The position numbers and the translations under genes were made by a program. Positions 17,382 through 34,509 of a stretch of DNA of 47,331 nt are shown here, piece after piece. The notes under the pieces are model-generated. The model saw nothing but the letters and a program-made list of their open reading frames with translations, was not told the DNA's origin and made no database searches. The DNA is from a virus: the IMG/VR virus record IMGVR_UViG_3300038423_000168, positions 1-47,331 of that record. One strand, written 5' to 3'. Every line of letters begins with the position of its first letter. Within the stretch, counting starts at the first letter, position 1.

Positions 17382-18089
17382 ATGGTATTTAGAATATACG
17401 CAATGAAAATCAGAAGTCACACCACCGAGAAAAGCTGGATTGTCTACCTTATAACCAACAAAGTAAATGGGAAGGTGTATGTTGGTCAAACATCCTGTGG
17501 TTTGAAAAGGCGATGGGCACTCCATTGTTCCCCCTCGGCGGGAAACAAACATCTGTTGAACTCTATTCGTAAATATGGCCGTGATTCCTTTGAAATCAGC
17601 ATTATCCACGGTCCGGGGCTTACCTTTGAAGAATCTAGCACCTTAGAGAAACGGGAAATATCTAAGAGGAAGTCAACCGACCACCAATTCGGATACAACC
17701 GAAGTACGGGGGGTGAAGGAGGTGCTAATGGTATGAGATTCCCCTCCGAAACTTACCCCAAAAGATTGGGTAGAAAATGCTCTGTCGAAACCATCAAAAA
17801 ACTACGGGATGCTGCAATTGGCAGAAAGTGCTCACCCGAAACAAGAGTGAAATTGAGGCTGGCACTAAAGGGTAAGAAACCATCTGCTAAGGCTATAGAA
17901 AACTCCCGTAATGTGTGGATTGGAAGAAAGCACTCACCGGAATCGAAAAGAAAAATAGGGGCGGCACAAAGGGAAGTTAGGGAGGTAAAACCGAGAACAC
18001 CTGAAACAATTACTAAACTGAAAGCGGCTTGGAAACGACGTAAATTAAAAAACCCAGAAATGGTGTTCCCGTTTCAAAAGGAAAAATAG
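17382..18089 (+). CDS. GIY-YIG homing endonuclease with NUMOD3-type repeats
   Basis: The GIY-YIG nuclease domain lies at about residues 20-110: WIVYLI, then KVYVGQTS, a catalytic Arg in LKRRW and a Glu around the EKREI helix. It is followed by several short NUMOD3-type DNA-binding repeats (GRKCSxET, GRKHSPES). At 235 residues it is the normal size for free-standing phage GIY-YIG enzymes, which nick or cut intron-less or marker alleles and copy themselves in. It ends two bases before the helicase gene, whose homologues may be its target. Starts at 17382 and 17403 are both possible and neither has a strong ribosome site. Confidence 0.85.
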   Translation: MVFRIYAMKIRSHTTEKSWIVYLITNKVNGKVYVGQTSCGLKRRWALHCSPSAGNKHLLNSIRKYGRDSFEISIIHGPGLTFEESSTLEKREISKRKSTDHQFGYNRSTGGEGGANGMRFPSETYPKRLGRKCSVETIKKLRDAAIGRKCSPETRVKLRLALKGKKPSAKAIENSRNVWIGRKHSPESKRKIGAAQREVREVKPRTPETITKLKAAWKRRKLKNPEMVFPFQKEK

Positions 18090-24015: not shown

Positions 24016-24774
24016 ATGAAACAAGTATGTGGAGTTTACTGTATTTCTCTTGTTAATACAGAGCGCAACTATGTCGGGCAAGCCAAAGATGTTTTCAAAC
24101 GTTGGAGGGAGCATCGGTGGGCTTTATCTAAGGGTGTGAATAAATCCAAAAGATTGCAAAGGGCGTGGAACAAATACGGTTCCGCTGCTTTTCTATTTAG
24201 GGTTTTGGAAGAATGTCCGTGCGACCCACTTGTGTTACTTACGAGAGAACAATATTGGATTGATGAACTTCAAGCCCACAAGAAAGGATTTAACTGTTCT
24301 CCGGTTGCTGGTTTGTCTACCTTGGGGGTTAAGTTTTCCGCTTCAACTAAGGCTAAGATATCAGAAAAAGCCAAAGGAAGGGTGATATCGGAAGAAACAA
24401 GAAGGAAAATTAGTGATGCCTTGAAGGGTCGATTATTTTCCTCAGAGCATAGGGCTCGATTATCGAAGGTAAGTACTCAAAGAATGCTTACCTCTCCTGA
24501 TAGATTTATTATCGGAAAGTGGTCTCACAACCACCCTCGTTTTGGAAAGGACAACTCGTTTTATGGTAAGCATCACTCGGATGATGTAAAATTAATAATG
24601 TCAGAAAAACATCAAGGGAAAACAGCCTCTTCTGAGCTTTGTGCTTTACGCTCTAAAAATGCAACTGGGAAAAACAACCCCATGTTTGGAAGAAAACATT
24701 CAGAAGAGACTAAGGAAAAAATTAGGCAAGCCCGAATTTTACGGGTTACGAGTATTGTAAGACAGGAAAGCTGA
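24016..24774 (+). CDS. GIY-YIG homing endonuclease with NUMOD3-type repeats
   Basis: This 252-residue protein has the GIY-YIG domain at residues 5-95 (CGVYCISL, then NYVGQAKD, FKRWREHR and a catalytic Glu in TREQYWIDEL). NUMOD3-type DNA-binding repeats follow (SEETRRKISDALKG, GRKHSEETKEKI). It lies directly after nrdJ, a frequent homing target. The start is preceded by the shared motif TTTGTGAACTATAG and by a small hairpin CCTTT/AGAGG (23999-24011) that covers the ribosome site AGAGGGG. The gene is AT-rich compared with its neighbours, which supports recent insertion. Confidence 0.85.
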   Translation: MKQVCGVYCISLVNTERNYVGQAKDVFKRWREHRWALSKGVNKSKRLQRAWNKYGSAAFLFRVLEECPCDPLVLLTREQYWIDELQAHKKGFNCSPVAGLSTLGVKFSASTKAKISEKAKGRVISEETRRKISDALKGRLFSSEHRARLSKVSTQRMLTSPDRFIIGKWSHNHPRFGKDNSFYGKHHSDDVKLIMSEKHQGKTASSELCALRSKNATGKNNPMFGRKHSEETKEKIRQARILRVTSIVRQES

Positions 24775-26885: not shown

Positions 26886-26964
26886 ACTCCGGTGAGTCGA
26901 GCGGCTAAGACACCTGCCTTACAAGCAGGTAAACTCGTGGGTTCGAGTCCCACCCGGAGTACCA
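26886..26964 (+). tRNA. tRNA-Val (TAC)
   Basis: Acceptor ACTCCGG/CCGGAGT, anticodon stem CCTGC/GCAGG with loop CTTACAA (anticodon TAC), T-loop TTCGAGT, CCA encoded. All stems intact. It is the first RNA after the attenuator. Confidence 0.93.
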
Positions 26965-26975
26965 AAATTAAATAT

Positions 26976-27053
26976 GCCCCGGTAGCTTAGTGGCTTCAAA
27001 GCGCCACCTTCACACGATGGAGAACACAGGTTTGAGTCCTGTTCGGGGCACCA
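26976..27053 (+). tRNA. tRNA-Val (CAC)
   Basis: Acceptor GCCCCGG/TCGGGGC, D-stem GCTT/AAGC, anticodon arm CCACC-TTCACAC-GATGG (anticodon CAC, one C-A mismatch), T-loop TTTGAGT, CCA encoded. A second Val isoacceptor directly after the first. Confidence 0.85.
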
Positions 27054-27056
27054 AGT

Positions 27057-27278
27057 TCTGGTTGACAGTAATGTCTACCAGATGTCAACGTATACGGCTA
27101 ATCCGGCTGACGACCGGTGTTATCGGCGACTTACGTTAAGAGCCGCCCTGTTTTAAGCCTTGTGGCGGGTAACCGCAGCGGTCATAGACGACTGTAAATA
27201 GAAGGGCATCCAAGGCTGGCCTCTCCCGTTCGATTTGGGATACTGTGCTCATGGGTATGGTAAGCCAGCCCACAAGGC
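27057..27278 (+). ncRNA. Unassigned structured RNA 1 in the tRNA array
   Basis: About 220 bases without a reading frame hold a chain of helices. A long hairpin TCTGGT-t-GACA/TGTC-t-ACCAGA (27057-27082) is capped by GTAA. Then come AACGTA/TACGTT (27087-27092 and 27132-27137) and a 9-bp closing stem GCCTTGTGG/CCACAAGGC (27157-27165 and 27270-27278). The closing stem encloses GCGG-GTAA-CCGC (27165-27176), GGCTGGC/GCCAGCC (27214-27220 and 27264-27270) and TCCC/GGGA (27224-27240). It sits between tRNA-Val and tRNA-Gly and may be processed with them. I do not recognise the family. Confidence 0.6.
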
Positions 27279-27287
27279 GAAAGATTT

Positions 27288-27361
27288 GCAGGGGTAGCAC
27301 AATGGCAGTGCGGGACGTTGCCAACGTTCATACGGGAGTTCGATTCTCCTCCTCTGCTCCA
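27288..27361 (+). tRNA. tRNA-Gly (GCC)
   Basis: Acceptor GCAGGGG/CCTCTGC, anticodon arm GGACG-TTGCCAA-CGTTC (anticodon GCC), T-loop TTCGATT, discriminator T, CCA encoded. Canonical. Confidence 0.92.
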
Positions 27362-27368
27362 AGTTTGT

Positions 27369-27442
27369 GGGGCCATCGTCTAATGGGAGGACTTCTGCCT
27401 TGCACGCAGAAAACCGGGGTTCGACCCCCCGTGGTTCCACCA
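27369..27442 (+). tRNA. tRNA-Ala (TGC)
   Basis: Acceptor GGGGCCA/TGGTTCC (with G-T pairs, including the G3-T70 identity pair of tRNA-Ala), anticodon arm TCTGC-CTTGCAC-GCAGA (anticodon TGC), T-loop TTCGACC, CCA encoded. Canonical. Confidence 0.93.
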
Positions 27443-27446
27443 AAGT

Positions 27447-27995
27447 TTAGGCATACTTAGACATCCCTCGGGATTGTCTTCCGTTGCCTTTATTTCGACC
27501 ACAGAAAGTTGGAGTCTGGCTGTTGCAGTTTGGACAAGTTAAGCGGACGTTGTCTGGTTTACAGTTTCCAGCATCTCCATCAATGTGGTCTACGACTGGA
27601 ATAAGGGGTTTGTTGCACCAAACGAGCAGCATACCGCAGATTTCACAGTTATTTCCTCTTTTTGAGATGAGGATTTTGCGGATGGTTTTTCGGTGCTTGA
27701 CTCCCCCTAGTTCAAACTGTTCTAGGGCCTTTGCATGGAGGTAGTGCCCACGTCCTTTCGGTTCTGGTTTCGGTTTTTTTGGTCTCTTTGCGTTGCTTGC
27801 TTTTGCCGAACAAGAACTGGAGCAATATGTGTTATCAAACCGTTTGTTGTAGGGGATGGATGCTTCGCATACGGGGCAACGTTTAGGGCTGAGCATGTAT
27901 TTAGCTTCATTTTTAGCAGTCCGGCTCTTGTTGCTGCATGCTAGCGAACAATAGATGTGGTTTGCTGGTGTATTACAGACTGGGCATTGATTCAT
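27447..27995 (-). CDS. HNH homing endonuclease, antisense to the tRNA array
   Basis: This 182-residue protein has two N-terminal zinc-knuckle-like motifs (CPVCNTPANHIYCSLAC and CPVCEASIPYNKRFDNTYC) and an HNH nuclease core near the C-terminus (CEICGMLL, VVDHIDGD, then N in DNVRLTCPNCN). I start it at the ATG at 27995 (MNQCPVC). An upstream in-frame ATG lies inside the neighbouring tRNA-Gly and is not credible. The gene is inserted head-on between tRNA genes. The segment from it to the next tRNA is flanked by copies of AAAGTTTAGGC (27442 and 28121). Confidence 0.85.
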   Translation of the reverse strand: MNQCPVCNTPANHIYCSLACSNKSRTAKNEAKYMLSPKRCPVCEASIPYNKRFDNTYCSSSCSAKASNAKRPKKPKPEPKGRGHYLHAKALEQFELGGVKHRKTIRKILISKRGNNCEICGMLLVWCNKPLIPVVDHIDGDAGNCKPDNVRLTCPNCNSQTPTFCGRNKGNGRQSRGMSKYA

Positions 27996-28008
27996 AGTTG
28001 TTTTTTGG

Positions 28009-28083
28009 GCGGGATTGATGTCAATGGTAGCATGCCACGCTTCCAACGTGGTCGTACCGATTCGACTTCGGTATCCCGCTCCA
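28009..28083 (+). tRNA. tRNA-Gly (TCC)
   Basis: Acceptor GCGGGAT/ATCCCGC, anticodon arm CCACG-CTTCCAA-CGTGG (anticodon TCC), T-arm ACCGA/TCGGT with loop TTCGACT, CCA encoded. A 7-bp hairpin ACCTCCT/AGGAGGT follows at 28082-28100. Confidence 0.92.
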
Positions 28084-28129
28084 ACCTCCTATAAAAGGAG
28101 GTCGAAAGTCGGTTTTCGCTAAAGTTTAG

Positions 28130-28203
28130 GCGGGTATGGTATATTGGGTGTGCCCAACCTTCCCAAGGTTGTGAAACGGATTCGATTCCCATGTCCCGCT
28201 CCA
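28130..28203 (+). tRNA. tRNA-Gly (CCC), degenerate stems
   Basis: Anticodon arm CAACC-TTCCCAA-GGTTG (anticodon CCC) is perfect, T-loop TTCGATT and CCA are present. The acceptor pairs only over GCGGG/CCCGC, and the T-stem has two mismatches. It may be a decaying copy: an intact tRNA-Gly(CCC) lies at 34433. Confidence 0.65.
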
Positions 28204-28207
28204 AGAT

Positions 28208-28336
28208 TGTAGTCACTCTAAGGGCTGTCGAAGCTGACGAGTGGCGAGGTTCTACCAGCAGGGTCCCTCAGTAAGGGGGACTGTGGTGGTTCCCCTGAAA
28301 AGGGACCCCGAGCAGTAGAACCTGCGGATGACTAGC
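28208..28336 (+). ncRNA. Unassigned structured RNA 2, with H-type pseudoknot
   Basis: The outer stem TAGTCA/TGACTA (28210-28215 and 28329-28334) encloses CACTC/GAGTG (28214-28218 and 28239-28243; two bases shared with the outer stem) and GGTTCTAC/GTAGAACC (28248-28255 and 28315-28322). The latter closes GGGTCCC/GGGACCC (28261-28267 and 28302-28308). Inside, CAGT/ACTG (28269-28272 and 28280-28283) has a G-rich loop whose GGGG (28276-28279) can pair with CCCC (28292-28295), an allowed H-type pseudoknot. There is no reading frame. It sits between tRNA genes and is not a tRNA or tmRNA. Family unknown. Confidence 0.65.
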
Positions 28337-28362
28337 TTAACCAGCCGGTTGTCCCGAATTTT

Positions 28363-28467
28363 GCGGGTGTAGCTTAATCAGAGCGGTGGTCCACCAGACC
28401 ACGCCGTGTCCGGGCTTGATATCAAGTCAGGCATGTTGTACCGGCTGAACGCCGGTCGCCCGCTCCA
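28363..28467 (+). tRNA. Aberrant tRNA-like RNA with ~37-base variable region
   Basis: Acceptor GCGGGTG/CGCCCGC and encoded CCA are intact, D-stem is GCTT/GAGC, and the T-stem is ACCGG/CCGGT. The D-loop is only AATCA (no GG), the T-loop is CTGAACG (no TTC), and the anticodon loop is CCACCAG with C at position 33. A 37-base region with the palindrome CTTGATATCAAG stands where the variable loop should be. If read as a tRNA, the anticodon is ACC (Gly GGT). It may have a non-translational role. Confidence 0.45.
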
Positions 28468-28473
28468 GTTTGT

Positions 28474-28548
28474 GGGCCTGTAGCTCAGCGGGAGAGCGCT
28501 TGCTCGACAAGCAAGAGGTGGTAGGCTCGACCCCTACCGGGCGCACCA
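28474..28548 (+). tRNA. tRNA-Val (GAC), C33 in the anticodon loop
   Basis: Acceptor GGGCCTG/CGGGCGC (one mismatch), anticodon arm CTTGC-TCGACAA-GCAAG (anticodon GAC), T-arm GTAGG-CTCGACC-CCTAC, CCA encoded. The nearly universal U33 is replaced by C, and T54 by C. Confidence 0.8.
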
Positions 28549-28555
28549 AAGTTTG

Positions 28556-28641
28556 GGACCGGAGCTTAAGCAGAACCTTCTGCCATCGGAAGAGCGTAGT
28601 GTTTACAACACTTGGGGGTGGGAATCCCTCCGGCTCCACCA
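28556..28641 (+). tRNA. Aberrant tRNA-like RNA, Val(TAC)-like
   Basis: The 3' end (GGCTCC plus ACCA) pairs imperfectly with the 5' GGACCGG. A T-arm GGGGG-TGGGAAT-CCCTC and an anticodon-like arm TAGTG-TTTACAA-CACTT (TAC) are visible. The variable loop is missing and a 20-base D-loop contains an extra hairpin GCAGA/TCTGC. Probably a decayed or non-canonical tRNA. Confidence 0.4.
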
Positions 28642-28646
28642 AGAAC

Positions 28647-28726
28647 GACGCTGGGTTCGTGCTCCAGAAGTGGGTGACACGACGCCAAGGAGAGGGGTTA
28701 ACAGCCCGGAGAGTAGGACCAGCGTC
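28647..28726 (+). ncRNA. Unassigned structured RNA 3
   Basis: An 80-base element closed by a perfect 8-bp stem GACGCTGG/CCAGCGTC (28647-28654 and 28719-28726). Inside are CGTG/CACG pairing and a GGG/CCC hairpin around GGGGTTAACAGCCC. It lies in a tRNA-to-tRNA spacer and ends one base before the AAGTTT spacer that punctuates the array. No reading frame, no family recognised. Confidence 0.45.
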
Positions 28727-28727
28727 A

Positions 28728-29378
28728 TCAAGTTTTGGGTACGTCGCCTAATGGGATGGCACTTCCCTCGCACGGAAGAACGATTGCGGGTTCGACTCCC
28801 GCCGTATCCACCAAGTTTTTGAAAGTATATAGTCCATCCTTAGCGATGAAGTGTTCATCTTCATGGCAGGTGGGGCAAAGGATTTCAAGGTTTTCAGGTT
28901 TGTTGTTTTTTCGATTGCGGTCTATATGGTGAACCCGCAGAACTGGGGTAAAGCGGGCGTATCCACAACGATTGCATTTTTTTGGATGATGTTTGAATGC
29001 AATTTCTCGATACGCCGCTCCACCGTTAGTGTAATGGTCTGGTCTCATATCATGAAATGCCTCACCGGATAGGATAGACTGAGCGTGGTCTTTACATGCC
29101 CGTGAGCAAAAAAGCAGACCAGATTTTGATGCTTTAATTTGAGCGGGGCGTTTTTCAAAGCTAGTAAAGCAAAATGAGCATTTTACAGTAACTCTTGTTC
29201 TACTAGCAACCCCCGAGCACTCTCTTGAGCAGTATTGACCATTAGAGTGTTTGGGTAAGTAAAAAGGCCTTTTGCATGTGGGAAGTGTACAGTAATGAAG
29301 AAACAGCCTTCTTGGCTTCCCATCGTAGAGTGTAGATATTATTGATTCTTCGGGTGGATTTGATATGTCAGTATGCAA
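28728..29378 (-). CDS. HNH homing endonuclease whose end runs antisense through a tRNA
   Basis: This 216-residue protein has zinc-knuckle motifs (CTLPTCKRPFYL...YCSREC, CSFCFTSFEK...LFCSRAC) and an HNH core (CNRCGYARF, LRVHHIDRNRKNN, then N and CPTCHEDEH). The start is a TTG at 29378 with GGAGGT eight bases before it. After about residue 189 the frame continues for ~27 residues through the antisense strand of tRNA-Ala(CGC) to a stop at 28728. The natural stop seems to have been lost on insertion. It could bind and cut the tRNA-array spacer. Confidence 0.82.
   Translation of the reverse strand: MHTDISNPPEESIISTLYDGKPRRLFLHYCTLPTCKRPFYLPKHSNGQYCSRECSGVASRTRVTVKCSFCFTSFEKRPAQIKASKSGLLFCSRACKDHAQSILSGEAFHDMRPDHYTNGGAAYREIAFKHHPKKCNRCGYARFTPVLRVHHIDRNRKNNKPENLEILCPTCHEDEHFIAKDGLYTFKNLVDTAGVEPAIVLPCEGSAIPLGDVPKT
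28737..28813 (+). tRNA. tRNA-Ala (CGC)
   Basis: Acceptor GGGTACG/CGTATCC (with G3-T70), anticodon arm CTTCC-CTCGCAC-GGAAG (anticodon CGC), T-arm GCGGG-TTCGACT-CCCGC, CCA encoded. Fully overlapped by the 3' end of an antisense HNH gene. Confidence 0.92.
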
Positions 29379-29420
29379 GTGTGATTACCTCCACCTATGT
29401 ATTTGATAGTTGATTTTCAC

Positions 29421-29494
29421 GGCCTGTTCGTCTATCGGCAGGACAGCAGATTCTCAATCTGTAAAGAGGGGTTCGATTCCCCTACGGGCTACCA
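29421..29494 (+). tRNA. tRNA-Glu (CTC), copy 1
   Basis: Acceptor GGCCTGT/ACGGGCT, anticodon arm GCAGA-TTCTCAA-TCTGT (anticodon CTC), T-loop TTCGATT, CCA encoded. The discriminator is A, whereas G is usual for tRNA-Glu. Confidence 0.87.
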
Positions 29495-29501
29495 AATTCA
29501 T

Positions 29502-29578
29502 GGGGTCGTAGACAAGTGGCTTAAGTCGCCAGATTCTCAATCTGGAAACCGTGGGTTCAAATCCCATCGGCCCTGCCA
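29502..29578 (+). tRNA. tRNA-Glu (CTC), copy 2
   Basis: Acceptor GGGGTCG/CGGCCCT, anticodon arm CCAGA-TTCTCAA-TCTGG (anticodon CTC), T-arm GTGGG-TTCAAAT-CCCAT, discriminator G, CCA encoded. Same anticodon as its neighbour but different body, so not a recent duplicate. Confidence 0.87.
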
Positions 29579-29590
29579 AGTGGAGATGTT

Positions 29591-29788
29591 GTGGCAACGT
29601 TGACGCTGGACATAAACGAGGAAGCGAAGTTCAAGGCTTGGGAGAAAGAGCACAAGAAAAAGTGCAAACTCCGGCCCGGTACGTGTGGTGACCTTTACAG
29701 CTTCAACATCTGCCCAAGTGGTATTGGGGATTTTATCAGTGTTCACTGCCCGTGTGGAGCACAAGCAGACCTGACGGGAAGTTTGTAA
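29591..29788 (+). CDS. Small Cys-containing hypothetical protein
   Basis: A 65-residue protein starting at GTG (29591) behind GGAG at 29582. The middle has KKKCKLRPGTCG and the end has VHCPCGAQADL, four Cys that could bind a metal ion. It lies inside the tRNA island and is on the same strand as the RNAs. Function unknown. Confidence 0.6.
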   Translation: MATLTLDINEEAKFKAWEKEHKKKCKLRPGTCGDLYSFNICPSGIGDFISVHCPCGAQADLTGSL

Positions 29789-29807
29789 AAGGCAAGACCA
29801 TGAGCCT

Positions 29808-29999
29808 ATGGATAACATCATTCACAAACTGCTGGTATACGAGCCAATTCGTATATTTGATGAGTTTAGCCACTGGATTGTGGTAGGATGGATGATTCTC
29901 CATACGTTGAGTTGGGCGATAGTGGAAGGATGCCGACTCTACTGGTCAACGAAAATAAAGATTAGGCGCATTTTCATACAAGATGTCGCCGAAGAGTAA
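29808..29999 (+). CDS. Small single-pass membrane protein
   Basis: A 63-residue protein with a charged N-terminus, a hydrophobic stretch of about 20 residues (WIVVGWMILHTLSWAIVEG, residues ~23-41) and a basic C-terminus (KIKIRRIF). The topology suggests one inner-membrane helix. It directly precedes the tRNA remnant at 30001. No family recognised. Confidence 0.6.
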   Translation: MDNIIHKLLVYEPIRIFDEFSHWIVVGWMILHTLSWAIVEGCRLYWSTKIKIRRIFIQDVAEE

Positions 30000-30000
30000 C

Positions 30001-30026
30001 GCACCTGTCGCCAAGTGGAAAGGCAT
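30001..30026 (+). pseudogene. 5' half of a tRNA (Gln-like) cut off by an HNH gene
   Basis: GCACCTG, TC, then GCCAAGTGGAAAGGC has the form of an acceptor 5' strand plus D-arm, and its D-arm resembles that of bacterial tRNA-Gln. The sequence then passes straight into the TTTGAACTA leader of the HNH gene. I found no matching 3' half (CAGGTGC) before or after the gene, so the tRNA looks destroyed by the insertion. Confidence 0.5.
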
Positions 30027-30028
30027 AA

Positions 30029-30058
30029 TTTGAACTACCAACCCCCTTTATAGGGGTT
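30029..30058 (+). promoter_or_regulatory. Endonuclease leader: TTTGAACTA motif plus hairpin over ribosome site
   Basis: TTTGAACTACC is followed by the hairpin AACCCC/GGGGTT (30040-30045 and 30053-30058). The only ribosome-binding sequence, AGGGG, lies inside its right arm and the ATG follows at once. This should keep translation low unless the hairpin is open. Confidence 0.6.
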
Positions 30059-30571
30059 ATGATGCTTATTTGCAAAAATTGCGGTGGGTATATTCCATCA
30101 AGGGTAAATGTTGATGGGAAAATAAAAAAGCTGAACGGTCGCAGGTATTGTTTATCCTGTAGCCCATTTAAGGGAAAGAAATTTAATTATGAAACTGACC
30201 GGGATGAGAATAGAAATTTCCACTGCCGCTTATGTGGTCAGAACACCGGTCCTCGCAGGCGTATGTGTAATACCTGTGTATCCCGCATTAGACGTTTTCG
30301 AGCTAAACGTACAGCCGTAAAGTGGCTTGGAGGAAAATGCAATCGGTGTGGATGGGTCGGAGACATTGCGGCTTTTGAGTTTCACCACCCCGGAGACAAC
30401 AAAGAGTTCGATATTGGTACGGTTAGTAACAGAGCATGGGCAACGATAGTCAAAGAATTAAAAAAATGTGAATTACTCTGTTCCAACTGTCATCGTACCG
30501 AACATCATGGCATCCGTGATGAGAATTTCTTAAAAATAGCGGATGAATATGGTGGAAAAATTTATGTTTAG
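30059..30571 (+). CDS. HNH homing endonuclease
   Basis: This 170-residue protein has three zinc-binding blocks (CKNCGGYIP...YCLSC, CRLCGQNT...CNTC, CNRCGWVG...LLCSNCH) and an HNH core in which FEFHHPGDNKEF and CSNCHRTEHH supply the nuclease residues. Two adjacent ATGs (30059 and 30062) are possible starts. It ends one base before tRNA-Cys and begins just behind a truncated tRNA, which fits an enzyme that targets the tRNA array. A hairpin covers the ribosome site. Confidence 0.85.
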   Translation: MMLICKNCGGYIPSRVNVDGKIKKLNGRRYCLSCSPFKGKKFNYETDRDENRNFHCRLCGQNTGPRRRMCNTCVSRIRRFRAKRTAVKWLGGKCNRCGWVGDIAAFEFHHPGDNKEFDIGTVSNRAWATIVKELKKCELLCSNCHRTEHHGIRDENFLKIADEYGGKIYV

Positions 30572-30572
30572 T

Positions 30573-30646
30573 GACTCGGATTCCGAATGGTTAGGAGGCG
30601 GTCTGCAAAACCGTTTAAGTGGGTTCGATTCCCATCCGGGTCTCCA
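30573..30646 (+). tRNA. tRNA-Cys (GCA), copy 1
   Basis: Acceptor GACTCGG/CCGGGTC, anticodon arm GCGGT-CTGCAAA-ACCGT (anticodon GCA), T-loop TTCGATT, discriminator T (U73 is a tRNA-Cys identity element), CCA encoded. Confidence 0.92.
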
Positions 30647-30652
30647 GTTTAA

Positions 30653-30729
30653 GCACGGGTACCCAAGCGGCTTAAGGGACAGGTCCGCAAAACCTGCATT
30701 CATAGGTTCAAATCCTATCCCGTGCTCCA
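30653..30729 (+). tRNA. tRNA-Cys (GCA), copy 2, C33 in the anticodon loop
   Basis: Acceptor GCACGGG/CCCGTGC, anticodon arm CAGGT-CCGCAAA-ACCTG (anticodon GCA), T-loop TTCAAAT, discriminator T, CCA encoded. The loop has C instead of U at position 33. Confidence 0.85.
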
Positions 30730-31359: not shown

Positions 31360-31711
31360 GGGGGCGTTCTGGTTTCGACGGGAGCGCTCATTGCAGGAAG
31401 GCACGCCGGGAGGTTACCCTGCCCGTAACAAGGGTTAACAACGCAATTGCCACAGCGCAATATGCATTTGCTTAATCGCTAGATTAGGCACGCTTGCTCT
31501 GCTTTAGCCTGTCGGGTAGAGGCCAAGCGCCGATAGAGAGGCTGCGACCGGGGATGCAGCCGATATCCGGCGAGATAAAGGCTTGCACCGTGGTTCTGAT
31601 ATGCCTGTTTCAGCAGAGTCATGGCAAAGAGCAGTACGAAGCAGGATAAGCGTGTAGTCTTCTTGTTGTGACACTTTTCGGACCTGGGTTCAAATCCCAG
31701 CGCCTCCACCA
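31360..31711 (+). ncRNA. ssrA: tmRNA (one-piece), tag ending QYAFA
   Basis: The 5' end GGGGGCG...TGGTTTCGACGGG and 3' end GACCTGGGTTCAAATCCCAG plus CGCCTCC-A-CCA form the Ala-tRNA-like domain, with the acceptor pairing fully. The tag frame starts at about GCA 31443 (or the AAC codon before it) and reads A-I-A-T-A-Q-Y-A-F-A then TAA at 31473. Ala/Phe/Ala at the end would suit proteolysis by ClpXP-like proteases. About 352 bases. It would rescue stalled ribosomes and tag nascent chains. Phage tmRNAs are known but not common. Confidence 0.93.
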
Positions 31712-31870: not shown

Positions 31871-32503
31871 TTGCGACCGCTGATATCCATTATGAGTTGC
31901 CACGCTCACCGTCGCTGGCAGCAGCAACTCAGGGAAACATGGTTGAGAGAGTGCCCGGTTGATTATCGGTTTTTCTTGGGTAGTCCCAAATTGGAAAATG
32001 CTGATGATGATGAGGTTTCGCTGAATGTTTCTGACACATACGGAGACCTCTCATCCAAGGTCCAAGCTGCATATCAATGGGTGATAATGTACAGCTATGA
32101 CCACGTTTTTAAGTGTGATGTTGATACCTATGTTTGCACCCCTCGGTTACTCCGGTCGGGGTTTGAGCGGCATGACCATATAGGACAACGGGGTGTGGGG
32201 GAAAATAACCAACCCTACGGAGGCTCCGGGTACTGGCTCAGTAGGAAAGCGTTAGAGTTTCTTGCGTCAGCGCCCTGCTTAAAGGACACCCGTTGCTACA
32301 ACGATGAGGATTGGTGGGTATGGGCAACGCTGTCATTTAATAGCGTTTGTCCCACAGAGCACGATGGTCGTTACAGTATGACGGAGGGAAGGGTCCCTCT
32401 CCCGGAAAACGACATCATCACTTACCACCCACACACACTTACCACCGAAGAACGTTTCATGGGCATTCAAATGGTCCACGAAAAGGCCAAGGAGATTAGA
32501 TGA
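31871..32503 (+). CDS. Glycosyltransferase, GT31-like (beta-1,3-galactosyltransferase type)
   Basis: This ~210-residue protein has the layout of GT31 enzymes: a first strand PLISIMSCHAH, the helix QQLRETW, YRFFLG, then FKCDVDTYV with the metal-binding DxD (about residues 83-85), and a late GGSGYWLSRKALEFL followed by EDWWVWATL, the usual acceptor-side motif. It would transfer a sugar from a UDP-sugar to virion or host glycans. A TTG at 31871 keeps the first strand complete, and an ATG at 31892 is the alternative. AAGGAG lies at 31852. The GT31 family is mostly eukaryotic, so lateral origin is possible. Confidence 0.75.
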   Translation: MRPLISIMSCHAHRRWQQQLRETWLRECPVDYRFFLGSPKLENADDDEVSLNVSDTYGDLSSKVQAAYQWVIMYSYDHVFKCDVDTYVCTPRLLRSGFERHDHIGQRGVGENNQPYGGSGYWLSRKALEFLASAPCLKDTRCYNDEDWWVWATLSFNSVCPTEHDGRYSMTEGRVPLPENDIITYHPHTLTTEERFMGIQMVHEKAKEIR

Positions 32504-32656
32504 ATTTGGTAGCACTATGTAGTGTGAGATGTAGTGTGAGATGTAAGGTGACGGCGTGAGCATCGGGAGCATGAGTTACTATCTTACTTTGAAGGCCCTT
32601 GACCCGGATGGGTCGAAGGGAATCTTCGCTCCTAATAATCCCAAGTTTGGAAAAGG
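32504..32656 (+). repeat. Spacer with short tandem repeat before the RNase P RNA
   Basis: The spacer begins with a tandem repeat of ATGTAGTGTGAG-type units (about 32515-32541). A GTG reading frame from 32556 runs into the RNase P RNA and is probably chance. No clear promoter was seen. Confidence 0.4.
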
Positions 32657-32962
32657 TTTGTGGACTGGACAACTGCTGCCCCGCAAGGGGGAGAGGAAAG
32701 TCGGAGCTACACAGAGCACCGTGCGGGGTAACGCCCCGGCGCAGTAGCAATACTGCGACAATTAGAGCAACAGAGACGAGCCGGTTAAGTCCGGGTGAAA
32801 CGGGCAATCTTCACGGGGAGCAATCTCGAATAGGAGGGGATGAACCTGCTCGGTTCGCTATAACCCTCGGGTTGAGAGCTTGACCCCCCTAGTAATAGGG
32901 GGGGCTAGATTGATGGTTGTCGCCTCGCAAGAGGAACAAAACTCCGCTTATAAGTCCACAAA
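32657..32962 (+). ncRNA. rnpB: RNase P RNA (bacterial type A-like, compact)
   Basis: Hallmarks are all in order. P1 is TTTGTGGAC/GTCCACAAA (32657-32665 and 32954-32962). P2 is ACAAC/GTTGT. Conserved region I is GAGGAAAGTC and pairs as P4 through CGGAG with CTCCG of region V (ACAAAACTCCGCTTATA). The middle has GAGCAACAGAGACGA and GGGTGAAACGGG, region IV is GGAGCAA...GAATAGGAGG, and the 3' part has CTAGATTGATGGTTGTC. P12 and the P13/P14 arms look shortened. At ~306 bases it is smaller than most bacterial forms. It would be the catalytic RNA that trims tRNA 5' ends, with host RnpA protein. Confidence 0.88.
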
Positions 32963-32969
32963 TAATTTA

Positions 32970-33006
32970 GTGATTTGACTACGGCAACCTTATTAGAGAG
33001 ATTGCC
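32970..33006 (+). promoter_or_regulatory. Endonuclease leader: TTTGACTA motif plus hairpin
   Basis: GATTTGACTACGG is followed by the hairpin GGCAA/TTGCC (32983-32987 and 33002-33006), with a possible inner CT/AG extension. The purine-rich ribosome site AGAGAG lies inside and the ATG follows at once. Same layout as at 30029. Confidence 0.5.
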
Positions 33007-33471
33007 ATGAAACAAAGTAAGTCACAAAAGCGGTTGAATGCGGACTATACAAGACAGTTAGGTATGAGTCCGGGGTCAGCTACCCATAAGCTTACTCGAA
33101 ACCTTCTTTTTAGGTACATCCAACAAAACCACGATGATGTTTGTTATCGCTGTGGTTCAAAGATTGAGACGTTAGCATCTTTTAGCATTGAACACAAAGA
33201 GCCTTGGCGTAATTCGGACCCGAATCTGTTTTGGGATTTAGAAAATATTTCGTTTGCCCATAAAAAATGCAATATTCAGGCAGCCCAACACATCGGAAAA
33301 AGAGTAATAGGTCCACCGGGAACAAGCTGGTGCTCAAATCACAAAATGTTTTTTCCTGTTGATAGGTTTTATAAAAACCGGTCAATGTGGAATGGGTTAC
33401 ACCGTCAGTGTAAAGAGTGTCATAAAAATTGGAAGAAGGCTTATAGGTCCACAAAATTTTCAGTATTATAG
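33007..33471 (+). CDS. HNH homing endonuclease
   Basis: This 154-residue protein has a basic N-terminal helix region (RLNADYTRQLGMSPGSATHKLTR), a zinc/HNH core (CYRCGSKI, FSIEHKEPW, then N in DLENISFAHKKCN) and a C-terminal zinc motif (CSNHKMFFP...CKECH). This order is seen in many free-standing phage HNH enzymes. It lies directly behind the RNase P RNA gene and before another structured RNA, so its target may be an RNA gene. AT-rich compared with neighbours. Confidence 0.82.
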   Translation: MKQSKSQKRLNADYTRQLGMSPGSATHKLTRNLLFRYIQQNHDDVCYRCGSKIETLASFSIEHKEPWRNSDPNLFWDLENISFAHKKCNIQAAQHIGKRVIGPPGTSWCSNHKMFFPVDRFYKNRSMWNGLHRQCKECHKNWKKAYRSTKFSVL

Positions 33472-34432: not shown

Positions 34433-34509
34433 GCGGGTGTAGTTCAGTCCGGTAGAACGCCAGCTTCCCAAGCTGGATGTCGTGGGTTCAAATCCCATCG
34501 CCCGCTCCA
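34433..34509 (+). tRNA. tRNA-Gly (CCC)
   Basis: Acceptor GCGGGTG/CGCCCGC, anticodon arm CCAGC-TTCCCAA-GCTGG (anticodon CCC), T-arm GTGGG-TTCAAAT-CCCAT, discriminator T, CCA encoded. Canonical, unlike the CCC copy at 28130. It is separated from the main array by ~2.7 kb. Confidence 0.93.

Follow-up and report, generated by a model that had tools for sequence, protein, structure and literature searches.

A phage-borne bacterial class A RNase P RNA beside tRNA and tmRNA genes

An RNase P RNA among tRNA genes

The window, by which we mean the whole 47,331-nucleotide stretch of viral DNA analysed here (IMG/VR record IMGVR_UViG_3300038423_000168), carries a tRNA array, a tmRNA gene, an RNase P RNA gene, an HNH endonuclease gene and a further tRNA gene (Table 1). 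Its proteins include tail-fibre, DnaB-type helicase, ribonucleotide reductase and endonuclease proteins, and 10 of the 20 proteins scanned have no PHROGs match. In a cmscan search with Rfam, RF00010 (RNaseP_bact_a) matches over the whole of the model (1–367 of 367) at 185.7 bits and E 1.5e-58, against a gathering score of 100 bits. This is the top-scoring RNA match in the window, and a scan of the window's own IMG/VR record gives the same match again. The window RNA is a bacterial class A RNase P RNA and is borne by a phage; its catalysis is inferred.

Table 1 Features of the window; coordinates are window positions
Feature	Coordinates	Strand	Evidence
tRNA array, 12 tRNAs (Val, Gly, Ala, Glu, Cys)	26886..30729	+	ARAGORN
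tmRNA, tag ATAQYAFA	31360..31711	+	RF00023 134.5 bits, ARAGORN
Gene between tmRNA and RNase P RNA	31871..32503	+	PF01762 galactosyltransferase, E 3e-4, 21.1 bits, below cut-off 23
CCAAGTTT, tRNA-linker-like	32641..32648	+	also at 27359 and 28811, at tRNA 3' ends
Class A RNase P RNA with short P12, no P13/P14 part	32657..32966	+	RF00010 185.7 bits
P1 5' strand, 11 pairs with 32951-32962	32657..32667	+	11/11 standard pairs
P2 5' strand, 7 pairs with 32915-32921	32668..32674	+	7/7 standard pairs
Conserved region I and P4 5' strand (32698-32706, bulged U at 32701 = U45)	32693..32708	+	model alignment, pairing
P15/L15 region, GGGCAA where the CCA-binding loop would be	32800..32817	+	sequence and model alignment
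P18 hairpin	32884..32903	+	letters mostly unlike G097, folds in both
Block foreign to G097: RNase P 3' part and most of HNH gene	32884..33438	+	G097 identity
P4 3' strand within conserved region V	32942..32949	+	8/8 pairs with 32698-32706
HNH endonuclease gene, 154 aa, at RNase P gene 3' end	33007..33471	+	phrog_23251 E 1.1e-22
Leftover RNase P 3' end (G097 RNA positions 289-309), in HNH gene 3' end	33439..33459	+	exact match
tRNA-Gly (ccc)	34433..34509	+	ARAGORN

What we take to be conserved regions I–V appear in order in the RF00010 alignment, with a single departure in region V. This region reads ACAAAAC in the window and ACAG in G097, a related record described below, and in nearly all of 31 compared phage RNAs, the other exception being G015. 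The RNA lacks 43 positions of the model, and the hairpin before this gap is short; we take these to be P13/P14 and P12, respectively. GGGCAA occupies what we take to be the position of the CCA-binding loop. The L15 motif GGU pairs with the tRNA 3' RCC, and the window L15 reads GGC instead; the Rfam consensus itself reads GcAA at this site.

A sequence-only reading had proposed a 306-base RNase P RNA with P1, P2 and P4 in order, a changed yet still paired P4 (CGGAG/CTCCG) and shortened P12–P14 arms. All three claims held: the RNA matches RF00010, P4 forms eight of eight pairs, and the P13/P14 part is deleted and P12 short. The 3' end that it gave, 32962, is the end of P1, and the RF00010 model extends 4 nt beyond. 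It had also proposed the Rfam covariance check, holding that no match, or an alignment lacking the P4 core, would refute it; the match is over the cut-off with P4 paired in the window, so the refuting outcome did not occur. Its count of 14 tRNAs and a tmRNA failed, as ARAGORN finds 13 tRNAs and the tmRNA.

All 14 of these genes encode their 3' CCA. The usual tmRNA tag ends in ALAA, from which the window tag differs. The window tRNAs comprise 11 readers of GNN codons and two tRNA-Cys, and the arrays of two further records, G014 and G018, are alike. The linker-like CCAAGTTT precedes the RNase P RNA by 8 nt and is possibly the trace of a lost upstream tRNA; its four occurrences in the window against 2.45 expected are, alone, not above chance.

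Related RNAs in other viral records and the helices they keep

IMG/VR was searched with one exact pattern from conserved region I in which two P4 positions were left free, yielding 117 stretches. RF00010 matches 59 of the 117 pattern-bearing records (21/40 + 21/40 + 17/37), 55 of them over the cut-off; among 14 known genomes used as a control it matched 11, with 8 over the cut-off. The ratio gives no frequency, because 58 records carry the pattern without a match and RNAs with other letters escape the search. Matching records longer than 60 kb number 31 (29 over the cut-off), and 14 reach at least 200 kb (13 over the cut-off). The earlier view that an RNase P RNA is unusual on a phage was thus only partly upheld, as this one is not a lone oddity. 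Part of the 59 is likely to be host flank, and a cluster of nine similar RNAs lies in records of 9–28 kb, eight of them less than 250 nt from a contig end.

Among the 60 records (window included), 45 were covered in the search for the RNase P protein and 50 in those for terminase, tmRNA and rRNA. No RnpA gene (PF00825) was found in the 45 records, which include the window's and G097, while 10 of 14 control genomes were positive; the virus records are possibly fragments, which limits this absence. Among 50 records, the window's being one of them, none was found to have SSU rRNA (against 9 of 14 controls), and 17 have a tmRNA over the cut-off. The phrog_2 terminase matches 18 of 50 records, 11 of which are among the 14 of at least 200 kb, and it has no match in the window or G097. 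This is weak evidence because 11 of the 14 cellular controls match too. Three terminase matches contain in-frame stops (one TAG in G056, one TAG in G106, two TAA in G084), for which stop recoding, an intron or an assembly error are possible explanations.

No clear isolated phage emerged when INPHARED was searched by blastn with five phage RNAs, the window's among them. The matches fell in records that are bacterial or look so, in two Acinetobacter records and in unverified human-fecal scaffolds; RF00010 matches MT835553, a human-fecal scaffold of 33.6 kb, at 288 bits. Tunturi_5, the only INPHARED record matched by the window DnaB protein, is without an RNase P RNA. 'Microcystis phage MaAM05' (MW495066.1) was rejected as an isolated phage with an RNase P RNA, the neighbours being fliM, glyS, fabI and mtgA. 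This record, submitted as a complete phage genome, resembles bacterial DNA. A class B RNase P of phages was also rejected as a candidate: its 30 pattern matches, without RF00011 verification, all lie on contigs of 39.6 kb or less.

Pairing was assessed in an alignment of 31 phage RNAs, from which 29 of the 60 rows (59 matching records and the window) were left out. These are near duplicates (G112, G037, G046, G066, G106, G085, G090, G095, G030), the cluster of nine small records with a truncated mate (G048, G064, G057, G008, G081, G006, G038, G007, G077, G060) and a further set (G013, G027, G034, G117, G002, G043, G047, G051, G104, G065); two rows that were kept, G050 and G084, score under the RF00010 cut-off. 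The phage RNase P RNA helices are kept through compensated changes. P1 is paired in 85.6% of cells, with changes on both sides at 10 of its 11 pairs, and P2 and P4 are paired in 99.5% and 99.6%, respectively. The window P4 reads AAG-(bulged U)-CGGAG / CTCCG-CUU, two pairs being changed on both sides relative to the Rfam consensus. P4 pairing is evidence beyond the RF00010 score, because the Rfam structure line leaves P4 unpaired. Most of the P4 5' strand was set by the search pattern, which left just two positions free. At the first, the 3' partner pairs in all 31 RNAs (18 G-C, 13 C-G), and at the second in 30 of 31 (19 G-C, 7 A-U, 4 G-U; the remaining one is G-G), giving 13 and 7 double changes, respectively.

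Measures taken over the whole structure agree: all five exceed slid controls and four exceed every shuffle, the fifth being reached by 4 of 500; the structure used came from the window RNA, which favours it. P18 is only 50% paired on the MAFFT alignment owing to misalignment. Since it could not be counted there, four P18 arms were folded singly, and all four, with unlike letters, fold into a hairpin, that of G097 with one mismatch.

The changed P4 was considered as a phage hallmark and rejected, as the same variant is widespread in bacterial genomes. The window P4 5' strand with its flanks occurs in 117 stretches of bacterial genomes, with the matching P4 3' strand in 105 of them, and RF00010 scored over the cut-off in all 18 genomes with the variant that were examined. 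Among 80 of their titles, 66 are Firmicutes/Clostridia. Two records titled Klebsiella pneumoniae carry RNase P RNAs of 447 and 433 nt, and these titles may be wrong because two deltaproteobacterial MAGs have RNAs of similar length (446 and 434 nt). In an RNase P RNA tree of low resolution, which omits one bacterial sequence, the window RNA groups with those of G097, G014, G009 and G018 (support 0.86); the other phage RNAs are scattered over several places, one group standing beside an actinobacterial RNA.

A jumbo-phage relative, tRNA neighbours and an HNH gene

The window is a fragment of a jumbo phage. Three further records are 99.98–100% identical to it over their shared length, and the related record G097 (316,945 bases) matches it piecewise at 65–98%, for example at 95.6% over 3,998 bases, 92.6% over 5,487 and 89.4% over 4,907, with low-identity pieces at 67.9% over 2,302 bases and 71.3% over 1,712. 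Between the RNase P RNAs of G097 and the window, identity is 93%, with 21 of 310 columns differing. G097 has one match each to RIIA, RNA ligase, polynucleotide kinase (PNK) and DNA ligase, two to RIIB, and up to three matching members for each of its tail-fibre families; the protein scan covered 58 of 170 ORFs of 180–1500 aa. ARAGORN, run on pieces, finds 60 tRNA genes covering all 20 amino acids, two of them without a clear anticodon. A G097 tmRNA is matched by RF00023 (124.4 bits) and is not called by ARAGORN.

The G097 array beside the RNase P RNA also reads GNN codons and Cys, the set for all 20 amino acids being spread over separate arrays. A phage-wide choice of GNN-only tRNAs is rejected, since G097 as a whole covers all 20, and the GNN bias is accordingly a matter of array organisation.

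Judged from model and ARAGORN coordinates, the RNase P RNA in 16 of the 59 records has a tRNA no more than 10 nt from one of its ends, and in 19 no more than 40 nt away; a tRNA or tmRNA lies within 1.5 kb in 35. At 12 of the 59 loci, less than 200 nt of flanking sequence is available on a side. The RNase P RNA of G014 and of G018 starts 6 nt after a tRNA-Cys and ends 6 nt before a tRNA-Gly, and in four others (G083, G102, G116, G032) tRNAs lie no more than 4 nt away on both sides. At the bacterial loci with the P4 variant, a tRNA was found within 10 nt in 0 of 117, within 40 nt in two (both at ~17–18 nt) and within 1.5 kb in 13. This control is mostly Clostridia, its RNA ends are estimated, and it includes the stretches without a matching P4 3' strand. 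Neither in the window nor in G097 does the RNase P RNA adjoin a tRNA. A reading of the RNase P RNA as an operon unit therefore rests on the relatives, because the nearest downstream tRNA in the window is ~1.5 kb away.

Comparison with G097 exposes a foreign block at the RNase P gene 3' end. Upstream of the RNA, 105 of 115 nt are identical between the two, followed by 226 of 227 RNase P positions before the block. Within the block's RNase P part identity falls to 63 of 83, so that 20 of 83 columns differ. From 33439 onwards, 113 of 113 positions are again identical, running from the leftover RNase P 3' end on into the G097 sequence downstream of RNase P. The 3' end of the G097 RNase P gene is uninterrupted, and the HNH gene has no tblastn match in the G097 pieces at E 1e-3. 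It is likely that the old gene received an insertion of ~555 nt at conserved region V, which brought a different RNase P 3' end together with the bulk of the HNH gene. P1, P2 and P4 all form between this new 3' end and the 5' half, which suggests that function was kept. ACAAAAC lies within the block and might shield the gene from its own HNH nuclease, though this is no more than a guess. The window holds four homing-type endonuclease genes (GIY-YIG or HNH; 17382-18089, 24016-24774, 30059-30571 and 33007-33471), of which one lies inside the tRNA array and another on the RNase P gene.

Interpretation and comparison with known systems

The explanation that we consider likely is that a jumbo phage encodes its own class A RNase P RNA, which works with the host RnpA protein on the phage tRNAs and tmRNA; activity is inferred, as there are no activity or transcript data. 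Since no RnpA gene was found in the records tested, the RNA probably uses the host's. During infection the phage RNA would join host RnpA, and the two together would cut the 5' leaders off phage pre-tRNAs and the tmRNA. Maturation of tRNAs would in this way continue at high demand or when host RNAs fall; there are phages that degrade host RNAs and replace tRNAs. Where a tRNA follows directly, the RNase P RNA would be one unit of a tRNA transcript, and the cut at the tRNA 5' end would also make the RNase P RNA 3' end. In the window, a homing-type HNH gene would have displaced the old RNase P 3' end while supplying a new one that pairs. The proposal, already made in the sequence-only reading, that the RNA matures the phage's own RNAs is supported and fits the 13 tRNAs and tmRNA in one region, with catalysis remaining an inference; no result bears on its further idea of a preference for odd tRNA-like precursors.

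Two features speak against a working enzyme: the window departs from the near-invariant ACAG, and its L15 has GGC rather than GGU. The need for a phage RNase P RNA is also not obvious, because the host presumably has its own.

A bolder reading is that several huge-phage lineages are almost self-sufficient in tRNA supply, having a tRNA set (for all 20 amino acids in G097), a tmRNA, enzymes for tRNA repair and a catalytic RNase P RNA that excises itself from the tRNA transcript and, with a borrowed host protein, makes up a phage-specific RNase P. Taken as a whole, we would not put this at even odds, although it falls only a little short.

Two alternatives to a working enzyme are judged unlikely, both less likely than our preferred reading because the catalytic core is kept. 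The RNA could be a decoy, which binds host RnpA and withdraws it from the host RNase P without acting as an enzyme. In support, no protein subunit was found (0/45), and the RNA must therefore compete for the host protein if it binds any. However, a decoy would not need an intact P4 core, yet P4 is kept with compensated changes across the 31 RNAs, and the phage's own tRNAs require RNase P. The RNA could instead be an inactive relic, picked up with tRNA genes, decaying and broken by the HNH invasion. The change in conserved region V, the missing arms and the HNH gene at the 3' end favour this. Against it, P1, P2 and P4 are fully paired despite the 20 of 83 differing columns in the 3' part, the first 227 positions differ from G097 at one position compared with 105/115 identity upstream, and the RNA scores 185.7 bits. 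Host DNA would mean that the RNA is the rnpB of a bacterium, lying in a prophage flank or on a bacterial contig wrongly classed as viral. This origin probably accounts for some of the wider set, such as the nine-RNA cluster near contig ends, and has a precedent in the deposited MaAM05, where an RNase P RNA sits amid bacterial-looking genes, but it is all but excluded for the window, whose RNA lies inside a contig with phage genes and recurs in the 317 kb G097 with RIIA/RIIB, neither having an SSU rRNA or RnpA gene that we could find, and the same objection holds for all 14 matching records of at least 200 kb.

If the phage-encoded RNA is active as a class A RNase P RNA, these phages supply part of the tRNA-making machinery itself, beyond the tRNAs. 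Their RNAs would form a new pool of natural ribozyme variants, including short forms and forms joined to tRNAs near-seamlessly, and whether host RNase P turns into a bottleneck in cells infected by tRNA-rich phages would become testable.

RNase P RNA is regarded as a cellular housekeeping ribozyme. The open-access literature that we searched yielded no description of an RNase P RNA encoded by a phage; it excludes most subscription papers and bioRxiv, and absence of a report is unproved. Huge phages with tRNAs, tmRNA and translation factors have been described (PMC7162821). They resemble the present phage in size and in their tRNAs and tmRNA, and differ in that 'RNase P' is absent from the main text of that paper. 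In two circularized megaphages, tRNAs and a tmRNA were the only RNAs detected (PMC8172020). The same study reports diverged RNase P RNAs in CPR bacteria that lack P13/P14 and the P15 UGG motif; the loss of P13/P14 is shared with the window RNA, whereas the CPR RNAs are cellular. As in other phage HNH endonucleases (phrog_23251), the HNH gene sits in a conserved gene that is uninterrupted in a relative, here G097; unlike them, its target is an RNA gene and the insertion brings a replacement 3' end. The closest counterpart is the bacterial class A RNase P RNA (RF00010), with which the window RNA shares a whole-model match, the P1-P2-P4 core and the conserved regions in order. It differs in being phage-encoded, with no protein subunit found, the P13/P14 part absent and P12 short, and its relatives differ further by sitting inside tRNA arrays.
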